From contig NZ_WTVH02000009.1 in the NCBI RefSeq assembly GCF_012910785.2, positions 620,001 to 684,000 on the forward strand: a DNA stretch of 64,000 nucleotides, given 5' to 3'. The notes beneath the pieces are model-generated. The model had not been told where the DNA came from. It ran no database searches and saw nothing but the letters and a program-made list of their open reading frames with translations. Shown here in pieces: positions 2,526 to 53,332 of the stretch (the stretch's first letter is position 1; every line of letters begins with the position of its first letter). Made by a program: the position numbers and the translations under genes. This DNA is from Aromatoleum buckelii (lineage in GTDB: Bacteria; Pseudomonadota; Gammaproteobacteria; Burkholderiales; Rhodocyclaceae).

Positions 2526-3113
2526 TCAGGCGGCGAAATTCTTCGACGCGAAGTCCCAGTTCGCGAGATTGTTCAGGAACGCGGCGACGAAGTCCGGGCG
2601 GCGGTTGCGGTAGTCGATGTAATAGGCGTGTTCCCACACGTCGATGCACAACAGCGGCTTGTCGCCGGTCGTCAGCGGCGTCCCGGCCGCGCCCATGTTG
2701 ACGATGTCGACGCTACCGTCGGCTTTCTTCACGAGCCACGTCCAGCCGGAGCCGAAGTTGCCGACGGCGGAGGTGGTGAAGGCTTTCTTGAAGTCTTCGA
2801 ACGAACCCCACTTGGCCTTGATCGCGTCGGCCAGCGAGCCCGCCGGTTCGCCGCCGCCGCTCGGCTTCATGCAGTTCCAGAAGAAGGTGTGGTTCCAGAC
2901 CTGGGCGGAGTTGTTGTAGATGCCGCCGGCTGGGGCCTTCTTGACGATTGCTTCGAGATCGAGGTTCTCGAATTCGGTGCCCTTGATCAGGTTGTTCAGG
3001 TTCGTCACGTAGGCCTGGTGATGCTTGCCGTAGTGGAATTCCATCGTCTCGGCCGAGATGTGCGGGGCCAGCGCTTCTTTCGCGTAGGGCAGCTGAGGCA
3101 GGGCATGTTCCAT
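2526..3113 (-). CDS. sodB: Iron superoxide dismutase
   Basis: Converts superoxide to hydrogen peroxide and oxygen in the cytoplasm. At 195 residues it has typical Fe-SOD length. The metal ligands are visible as His27 (in EFHYGKHH), His75 (in WNHTFFW), and Asp and His of DVWEHAYY near residues 158-162. Gln71 in the NNSAQ segment is the second-sphere residue characteristic of Fe rather than Mn enzymes. No signal peptide is seen. GAGAGAGAAA upstream of the ATG acts as ribosome binding site. The gene lies downstream of xseA on the same strand but is separated from it by a hairpin, so it probably has its own promoter. Confidence 0.95.
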
Positions 3114-3149
3114 TTTTCTCTCTCCTGTTGCAATTCAGGTTGTTGGGCT

Positions 3150-3177
3150 AAAAGCCTGCCGATTCTAGGCGGGCTTT
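3150..3177 (-). terminator. Hairpin terminator after xseA
   Basis: The arms at 3151-3160 and 3168-3177 pair over 10 bp with one mismatch; read on the minus strand, the stem is followed by TTTTAG. It lies between the xseA stop and the sodB start, as expected for the end of the xseA transcript. Confidence 0.65.
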
Positions 3178-32924: not shown

Positions 32925-33121
32925 TGGAAAGCCTTTACATCCTGATCCCGCTCTCGGTCGTGCTGGTTTTCGTGATCGGCGTGATTTTCTGGTGGTCGCT
33001 CAAGTCAGGGCAGTACGACGATATGGAAGGTCCGGCGTACCGGGTGCTGATGGACGACCGCGATGCGCCACCGCCTGCCGAGAAGCAGCCGGACGGCACC
33101 GACCGCGAGGCGCCGAAGTGA
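32924..33121 (+). CDS. ccoS: cbb3 oxidase maturation protein CcoS
   Basis: A 65-residue membrane protein with one helix (ILIPLSVVLVFVIGVIFWW, residues 6-24) followed by the family motif SLKSGQYDDMEGPAYRVLMD. CcoS is needed for cofactor insertion into cbb3 oxidase. The ATG overlaps the ccoI stop (TGATG), so it is translated from the ccoI message. Confidence 0.93.
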   Translation: MESLYILIPLSVVLVFVIGVIFWWSLKSGQYDDMEGPAYRVLMDDRDAPPPAEKQPDGTDREAPK

Positions 33122-33159
33122 GGCGGAGCACCTCGCGGCACTGCCGGGGACACTCTTTG

Positions 33160-33173
33160 TTGATCCTGGTCAA
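33160..33173 (+). promoter_or_regulatory. FNR-type box upstream of a predicted small RNA
   Basis: TTGATCCTGGTCAA matches the FNR/ANR consensus TTGAT-N4-ATCAA in 9 of 10 half-site bases. A -10-like CATACT lies at 33196-33201; a start at about 33208 would place the box centre at -41.5, the exact class II spacing. It could also act at a distance on ccoN. Confidence 0.7.
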
Positions 33174-33207
33174 AACTTCATCCGGCCGAGATGGGCATAC
33201 TTTTTCC

Positions 33208-33314
33208 ATGGTTTTTACGGGTGTCGCCGCGAAATTTCGGGAGGCATTCCGGCAGCTGGTATTCATGTCTCTCTGTTGGGGTTGGGGGTGCGTTCGATAC
33301 GCACCCTTTTTTTT
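33208..33314 (+). ncRNA. Candidate FNR-induced small RNA between ccoS and ccoN
   Basis: A predicted transcript of about 107 nucleotides. It is bounded upstream by an FNR-type box at class II distance and a -10-like CATACT, and downstream by a strong terminator with eight T residues. No gene is recognised within it: an open frame starting at 33209 runs through both downstream terminators and has no family resemblance. The centre holds an unpaired pyrimidine stretch (TGTCTCTCTG near 33267), a possible target-pairing site. By analogy it resembles FnrS of enterics in layout only. Existence is inference. Confidence 0.45.
33286..33314 (+). terminator. Strong intrinsic terminator upstream of ccoN
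   Basis: GGGTGCG (33286-33292) pairs perfectly with CGCACCC (33300-33306) around TTCGATA, followed by eight T residues. It ends either the ccoI-ccoS message or the predicted small RNA. Confidence 0.9.
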
Positions 33315-33327
33315 GCCTGCGATTTTC

Positions 33328-33352
33328 ACCATGTTTCCAACATGGTTTTTTT
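33328..33352 (+). terminator. Second tandem intrinsic terminator upstream of ccoN
   Basis: ACCATGTT (33328-33335) pairs perfectly with AACATGGT (33339-33346) around TCC and is followed by six T residues. It lies 14 bases after the first terminator and insulates ccoN from upstream transcription. Confidence 0.85.
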
Positions 33353-33397
33353 GCGCGATTGGTGCTCCATATGCTTCCGCCCGATTGCGCGGTGCAA

Positions 33398-33418
33398 TAT
33401 AATGTTGACCTAAGTCAA
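33398..33418 (+). promoter_or_regulatory. FNR-type box and TATAAT hexamer upstream of ccoN
   Basis: TTGACCTAAGTCAA (33405-33418) is a symmetric FNR-type palindrome about 100 bases before the ccoN start. A perfect TATAAT (33398-33403) abuts it. The box can activate a downstream start near 33453, or, if TATAAT is used, would sit at the transcription start. The two readings predict opposite effects. The rest of 33122-33520 holds the small-RNA locus and two terminators. Confidence 0.72.
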
Positions 33419-39538: not shown

Positions 39539-39601
39539 ATTATAGCCACGTCGGGCGCGATGGCGCGCTGCGGGCAGCGGCGGACGATTGACACAGGTCA
39601 A
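39539..39601. promoter_or_regulatory. Divergent control region: FNR-type box and usp -10 hexamer
   Basis: TTGACACAGGTCAA at 39588-39601 is a symmetric FNR-type palindrome. On the minus strand TATAAT at 39544-39539 predicts a start near 39532, putting the box centre near -62, class I spacing. On the plus strand the box centre lies 57 bases before the hydrolase start codon and could act at class II spacing. Confidence 0.75.
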
Positions 39602-42960: not shown

Positions 42961-42974
42961 TTGACCCGAGTCAA
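42961..42974. promoter_or_regulatory. Isolated FNR/Dnr-type box in a convergent intergenic region
   Basis: TTGACCCGAGTCAA is a symmetric FNR-type palindrome between the 3' ends of phaC and the Dnr-like gene, where no coding gene starts. On the plus strand GAGAAT at 42998-43003 lies where a class II -10 would be, so an RNA antisense to the regulator gene is conceivable. Confidence 0.5.
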
Positions 42975-46813: not shown

Positions 46814-46827
46814 TTGATCCACGTCAA
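46814..46827. promoter_or_regulatory. FNR-type box between fnr and hemN
   Basis: TTGATCCACGTCAA matches the consensus in 9 of 10 half-site bases. Its centre lies 61 bases before the hemN start codon, so a class II start near 46862 would leave a leader of about 20 bases. It is also about 64 bases upstream of the fnr start codon. Confidence 0.82.
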
Positions 46828-53116: not shown

Positions 53117-53205
53117 TGAATCCCGCGCAAAGGTTGTCGAATGCGGGGCTGGCACGGGCACGAGGCACGTGCTGCGCGGCCGGCCCGCAACGCAGTCACC
53201 ATCAC

Positions 53206-53316
53206 GAAGGCCGGTCTCCGGGCTTTGCGCAGGGCGCGCATTTACCGTTGCGGGGGCAGCGCAGGAATTTCACCTGCTTCCCGATTCTCCGCGGCATCGA
53301 TCGTCGCGGCACCTTC
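53206..53316 (-). ncRNA. Cobalamin riboswitch
   Basis: Read on the minus strand, conserved blocks appear in order: GAAGGTGCC at the 5' end (53316), GGTGAAATTCCTGCGCTGCC and CCCGCAACGGTAA (B12 box region, about 53272-53240), and AGCCCGGAGACCGGCC ahead of CCTTC at 53206, which closes the P1 stem with GAAGG. The aptamer ends about 90 bases before the tonB start. Adenosylcobalamin should repress expression, linking this TonB to B12 uptake. No B12 receptor gene is adjacent. Confidence 0.92.
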
Positions 53317-53326
53317 GAGCGGGCCG

Positions 53327-53332
53327 ATTATA
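53327..53332 (-). promoter_or_regulatory. -10 hexamer of the riboswitch transcript
   Basis: A perfect TATAAT on the minus strand, about 10 bases upstream of the aptamer's 5' end. No good -35 is visible 17 bases further up. Confidence 0.55.

Follow-up and report, generated by a model that had tools for sequence, protein, structure and literature searches.

The interval between ccoS (ending at 33121) and ccoN (33521) in the window, i.e. the whole stretch of 64,000 nucleotides of Aromatoleum buckelii analysed in this work, is predicted to encode an FNR-activated trans-acting small RNA that would repress aerobic and redox genes in anoxia; we assign this reading a probability of about 0.8. It is argued for by the conservation of promoter, core and terminator, by antisense sites at the translation starts of other genes and, for one target, by pairing partners that match in each of six genera. 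As oxygen drops, an FNR-type regulator would bind at about -41.5 and drive an RNA of about 107 nt ending at its own terminator ahead of the ccoN operon, production and end point being deduced from the anatomy of promoter and terminator. The conserved 3′ core GUCUCUCUGUUGGGGUUGGGG would then base-pair with mRNA leaders rich in C and A (type CCCCAACCCCAACAGAGAGA), covering or adjoining the start codon and ribosome-binding site in genes for aerobic, redox, Fe-S and carbon-flux proteins, so that translation would be blocked or the mRNA destabilised. A chaperone of the Hfq type would go well with the U run at the 3′ end. Transcription of the RNA, its dependence on oxygen and FNR, the chaperone and the repressive effect are what we infer.

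The genera with the core in a scan of GTDB genomes comprise, among those listed, Azoarcus, Aromatoleum, Thauera, Dechloromonas, Zoogloea and Candidatus Accumulibacter, which play central parts in wastewater treatment, in denitrification and in the anaerobic degradation of aromatic compounds. With a conserved FNR-boxed RNA, its exact address and a list of targets, the shutdown of aerobic genes at the oxic-anoxic switch becomes directly testable, and the system provides an example of targets turning over while the RNA that addresses them stays invariant. One report describes Aromatoleum aromaticum as lacking ArcBA and mentions small RNAs there only as a possibility (PMC9765128). Our literature searches, mostly of openly available papers, found no report of this RNA.

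The genome to which the window belongs comprises 4.16 Mb in 10 contigs. The features discussed below are, in window coordinates:

3114 to 3158, minus strand: leader of sodB (CDS 2529-3113 plus stop), a weak candidate target
33160 to 33173, plus strand: FNR-type box TTGATCCTGGTCAA in class II position, centre at about -41.5
33196 to 33201, plus strand: -10 hexamer CATACT, 22 nt after the FNR box
33208 to 33314, plus strand: predicted small RNA of about 107 nt, its start derived from promoter geometry
33267 to 33288, plus strand: conserved core GTCTCTCTGTTGGGGTTGGGGG, the proposed target-pairing region, with 33270-33283 invariant in sets of 55 and 59 sequences
33284 to 33314, plus strand: intrinsic terminator with eight T (stem 33284-33308, T run ending at 33314)
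33405 to 33418, plus strand: second FNR-type box TTGACCTAAGTCAA before ccoN, belonging to the neighbouring promoter and lying outside the RNA

The FNR box, the CATACT hexamer, the terminator and the transcript of about 107 nt had been proposed in a sequence-only reading of the window; the three signals were located again, with the terminator stem beginning at 33284, and predict the same transcript length. The box has one mismatch to TTGATNNNNATCAA; placing its centre (33166.5) at -41.5 puts the predicted start at about 33208 and thus gives an RNA of 107 nt. A sigma-70 scan of the window returned no promoter at the RNA locus; class II FNR promoters do not need a -35 element. Across the 64 kb the FNR box is matched 21 times with up to two mismatches, where shuffled sequence gives 10.28, and the 107-nt RNA folds moderately better than its shuffles (z -2.29; z -1.67 for 33207-33316). 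The signals are weaker in the window taken alone, and the case for the predicted RNA rests on conservation. Just 3′ of the terminator of the RNA comes another terminator-like hairpin, followed by a T run (33328-33353, hairpin 33328-33346). Elsewhere in the window further palindromic FNR-type boxes (TTGAC/T...GTCAA) were seen at 39588-39601, 42961-42974 and 46814-46827, and a cobalamin riboswitch at 53192-53331 on the minus strand (87.1 bits).

The search of 150 relatives used 33150-33330 as the query, and the part common to the matches corresponds to 33266-33314. The element is present in 71 of 91 family genomes (Rhodocyclaceae sensu GTDB, window included; loci L001-L070 and L087). The proposal of the sequence-only reading had been staked on conservation of box, hexamer and hairpin in relatives, and all three are kept. 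Twenty family genomes are without the canonical RNA, and a ccoN match was obtained in 15 of them; among 14 ccoN leaders read from such genomes, two (G034 and G066) contain a diverged form that retains an FNR box, a core rich in G and a hairpin, no core was recognised in the other 12, and an FNR-type box within 420 nt of ccoN is kept in 12 of the 14. With 118 stretches listed from GTDB genomes, the exact 18-nt core is adjoined by a cco protein at 77 of 80 loci among those listed; of the three others, L190 is the leader of a DsrC-like gene (Pfam DsrC), and L192 (Nocardioides) and L245 (Ruegeria) look like chance matches. Covariance model R1 reached at least 60 bits in 10 of 250 genomes drawn from the order, 8 of them in the family and two (G472 and G491) labelled as other families and carrying ordinary ccoS-core-ccoN loci, the remainder staying at or below 37 bits. 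Among 185 genomes of the class the window's own genome alone exceeded 33.2 bits with this model, and full-strength copies outside the family were limited, in the 250 and 185 genomes together, to G472 and G491. Among 21 loci from these order and class genomes that were read (3 in part), most apart from those of G472 and G491 look like plain terminators. At about 1501 on the minus strand of L309 (G128, another family of the order) CTCCCCCTGTTGGGGTTAGGG stands before a terminator, with no FNR box in the 130 nt inspected; this is either a distant cousin or a look-alike.

A box with at most 2 mismatches followed at 21-22 nt by a hexamer with at least 4/6 matches was found at 65 of the 71 homologous loci, in comparison to a mean of 0.055 in 71 and a maximum of 1 in dinucleotide shuffles of the same upstream stretches (200 rounds). 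When spacings from 10 to 24 nt were taken singly, 22 nt accounted for 48 loci, 21 nt for 17, and 11, 12 and 15 nt for one each. Widening the spacing to 20-25 nt brought the number to 66, with the hexamer spelled CATACT in 37 of them, and left L014, L027, L047, L066 and L070. The box is present at L014 and L047 with a poorer hexamer and lies further off at L070. At L027 and L066 the box stands 751 and 770 nt before the core. An OmpW gene (Pfam OmpW) comes between the two, with 10 nt separating the end of its ORF from the core, and L066 is without a good hexamer; at these two loci the RNA may be a 3′ UTR product of the OmpW gene. Judged from sequence alone, a class II FNR box precedes its own predicted transcript, as is required of FNR-activated trans-acting small RNAs. 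Within the transcript UCUCUGUUGGGGUU is invariant over 55 and 59 sequences and the 5′ half drifts and hardly aligns. The terminator covaries, with 5 of the 13 pairs of the consensus structure changed on both sides, all of them in the terminator stem.

The pyrimidine-rich stretch near 33267, singled out in the sequence-only reading for a target search, is the start of the conserved core. Among the shorter matches of the 150-relative search, 29 to the core and 21 controls to other parts of the query were read. By eye, 24 of the 29 core matches read, among the matches listed, are antisense at translation starts and fall into 19 gene groups (antisense, ending no more than about 40 nt before the start codon or overlapping it; L088 just after), whereas the 21 controls gave one such case at most (L138, a possible one; none was clear). 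A reservation is that the site has a purine-rich part similar to a ribosome-binding site, and this similarity by itself favours positions before start codons. The core matches that failed are L115, L120 (short ORF, uncounted) and L124-L126 (terminator part, inside genes). Under a strict automatic rule, with seven more ferredoxin copies added, 18 of 36 core matches were scored as antisense and 4 as sense, against 4 and 2 of the 21 controls and 8.9% of 5,700 random positions; this rule, which overlooks some of the ferredoxin copies and counts starts lying within other genes, is less clear-cut than the reading by eye. The pattern CCAACCCCAACAGN{1,30}ATG gave 95 matches in 80 of 297 family genomes versus 13 control matches, many being the opposite strand of the RNA and others lying inside genes without a real start (70 loci of this search were read, some the same site twice). 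In 17 genomes of the window's genus a 20-mer antisense pattern (up to 3 mismatches) gave 54 matches, 17 of them the RNA itself, and the other 37, read in part, compare with 4 for the reversed control.

The target list is biased to long matches. Candidates passing a curated cut-off are TusE/DsrC, YfhL-type ferredoxin, a 2Fe-2S ferredoxin domain, Cu-Zn SOD (Pfam), isocitrate lyase, glyoxylate carboligase, pyruvate kinase, FolE2, an FAD-dependent hydroxylase-like oxidoreductase, amidohydrolase (two genomes), glutathione peroxidase, L(+)-tartrate dehydratase/fumarase alpha (genera g1 and g62), acyl-CoA dehydrogenase (two genomes), YdiU/SelO, the N-domain of shikimate dehydrogenase, DsrE, TctC, HAD type II and MSMEG_0572. 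Strong matches below the cut-off are cytochrome bd subunit I (cut by the locus end), YceI (two genomes), a WrbA-like protein and an aldehyde dehydrogenase; no protein family was found for L080 and L391. Silencing of aerobic genes, suggested in the sequence-only reading, would fit such antisense sites at translation starts; some candidates are not aerobic, e.g. pyruvate kinase, FolE2 and the AcsV-like protein of L423. By sequence, the RNA is likewise predicted to pair with several unlinked mRNAs at their translation starts, as is required of FNR-activated trans-acting small RNAs.

In six genera (G045, G035, G017, G026, G024 and G057) the leader of a DsrC-like gene is predicted to pair with the core of its own genome, with duplexes of -28.5 to -39.3 kcal/mol and z from -3.05 to -5.8; at most one of 500 shuffles did as well. 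For comparison, sixteen further leaders of dsrC type, sorted by eye and comprising paralogues and relatives from the order, gave -14.7 to -27.0. The DsrC-like leader of G033, a genome without the RNA, is unremarkable (z -1.49), and the closest such leader in G041, which has the RNA, is without the site (-19.5; orthology unsure). A ferredoxin site is kept in 10 genomes of the window's genus at -31.9 to -38.7 (background -19.3 ± 3.0, 1% at -27.2), is only weakly present in G014 (-24.6) and is missing from G000, G005, G007, G008 and G011 (-19.4 to -21.7). By eye, ferredoxin leaders (e.g. L071 and L329) resemble an inverted copy of the terminator plus core of the RNA, a likeness that hints at how target sites may arise.

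Most long targets are lineage-specific, and targets that hold the core invariant in every genome may therefore remain to be found. aceA is not supported as a general target, the site of G057 recurring in 0 of 27 other aceA loci (4 placed poorly). Pattern searches of the genome that holds the window turned up no long target site. The sodB duplex there (-27.4 kcal/mol) ranks third of 44 ORF starts in the window, the two above it being apparently spurious by eye, and has z -2.76 with 10 of 1000 shuffles as good (z -2.02 to -3.69 in four relatives); sodB is present in 13 of 20 syntenic stretches, with duplexes of -23.8 to -30.2. A 9-nt pattern before ATG gave 10 matches besides the RNA versus 2 for the control in five close genomes, aroG being the only recurring one (3/5: G000, G005 and G007). 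Both sodB and aroG are weak candidate targets, to be taken as leads only.

The direction of the effect is unreadable from sequence, and anoxic cells could have a use for several of the targets related to ferredoxin and Fe-S; the RNA could thus activate its targets or mostly titrate another small RNA. We consider this unlikely, since the sites overlap or just precede ribosome-binding sites, where pairing of small RNAs usually blocks initiation.

Also quite unlikely is a role mainly in cis, as an FNR-driven short transcript forming a leader or attenuator that tunes the downstream ccoN operon. It would suit the place before ccoN, which is fixed in most loci (at 64 of 71 the element follows ccoS and precedes ccoN, all on one strand, by tblastn with the window's proteins; one cco neighbour only at L028, L045, L054, L059, L065 and L066), and the FNR boxes also found near ccoN. 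However, what is conserved is a 21-nt core plus terminator, with complements of the core at the starts of unrelated genes, and a purely cis role is not supported. Extra genes lie between core and ccoN at L205 and L258, ccoN is about 0.75 kb off at L234, and L061 has promoter, core and terminator with a distant ccoS match as the sole sign of a cco neighbour. For tuning of oxidase assembly, the other function suggested in the sequence-only reading, no specific support was obtained.

The core is more constrained than most small RNA seeds and is G-rich, and a possible UCUC-UGUU-GGGG hairpin within it has four pairs that never vary. An FNR-induced RNA with a chiefly protein-binding core (an RsmA-like or Hfq-like sponge), in which matches to leaders arise as a side effect, would account for these properties. 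UGUU is mostly unpaired in 63 folded transcripts (0.82-0.89; core mean 0.52); the RNA of the window itself has this stretch largely paired (0.17-0.18 unpaired), its predicted fold pairing most of the core, and this counts against the preferred reading. We regard the sponge as very improbable, because the antisense orientation and translation-start position of the matches, their enrichment in the genus (37 vs 4) and the long pairing retained in DsrC-like and ferredoxin leaders need base pairing as their explanation. That the RNA encodes a small protein is hardly credible: ORFs can be drawn through the stretch, but indels inside the conserved part of relatives (GGGGTTGGGGG vs GGGGTTGGGG) and a 5′ half of other length and sequence break every frame.

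The preferred reading of a repressing, trans-acting RNA can be extended to the whole family, tentatively and with the odds against the full scheme. The RNA would be a post-transcriptional FNR arm of Rhodocyclaceae in which the core is a fixed address and the regulon changes as genes gain or lose long, near-perfect antisense leaders, the Aromatoleum ferredoxin possibly through an inverted partial copy of the 3′ half of the RNA; in some genera an ompW gene with an FNR box would supply the RNA as its 3′ UTR, in place of a promoter belonging to the RNA.

FnrS of Escherichia coli and its relatives resembles this RNA in the FNR box, the own terminator and the proposed repression of oxidative metabolism. 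The layout had been called FnrS-like with an unrecognisable sequence, and indeed the FnrS covariance model was not among the Rfam matches up to E 5, so membership was rejected. FnrS differs in genomic place and in its pairing letters, and the long near-perfect target sites predicted here are a further difference. The targets of FnrS include sodB, according to PMC10993149, and sodB is a weak candidate target of this RNA. AniS of Neisseria, whose host is also a betaproteobacterium, is described in PMC4423775 as anoxia-induced and FNR-controlled, with a deduced role of Hfq. Both layouts have a single-stranded stretch before the terminator, and AniS has CUCUUUCCUCUUGAUGUGUG where this RNA has its core; membership in the AniS family (RF02274) was rejected at 14.9 bits versus a gathering score of 50 (E 2.8 and 1.7). 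AniS-like sequences were seen by eye in two genomes of other families (L311 and L313). The long terminator T run is compatible with Hfq-dependent small RNAs, and as far as sequence can say the RNA would work like FnrS and AniS while belonging to neither Rfam family.

SorY (RF02651) and SorX (RF02784) of Rhodobacter share with this RNA CUCYCUGUUGG directly 5′ of the terminator. The window matched SorY at E 0.0025, 0.00076 and 0.00046 and SorX at E 0.018 and 0.011, varying with the stretch searched; among 12 relatives, SorY was matched up to E 0.5 in five (25.5-32.4 bits) and SorX in one, the shared stretch being short. Membership in either family was rejected, the scores of 26.8 vs 111 and 18.9 vs 46.6 bits being far below the gathering scores. 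According to PMC8625941, RNase E releases SorX from the 3′ UTR of ompR-1, and SorX has its role under oxidative stress. The likeness may reflect descent or convergence.

A Crp/FNR-type regulator gene (Pfam HTH_Crp_2 and cNMP_binding) was seen between the RNA and ccoN at L205:2704-3462 and L258:6180-6968, so that a possible activator is a neighbour of the RNA at these two loci.
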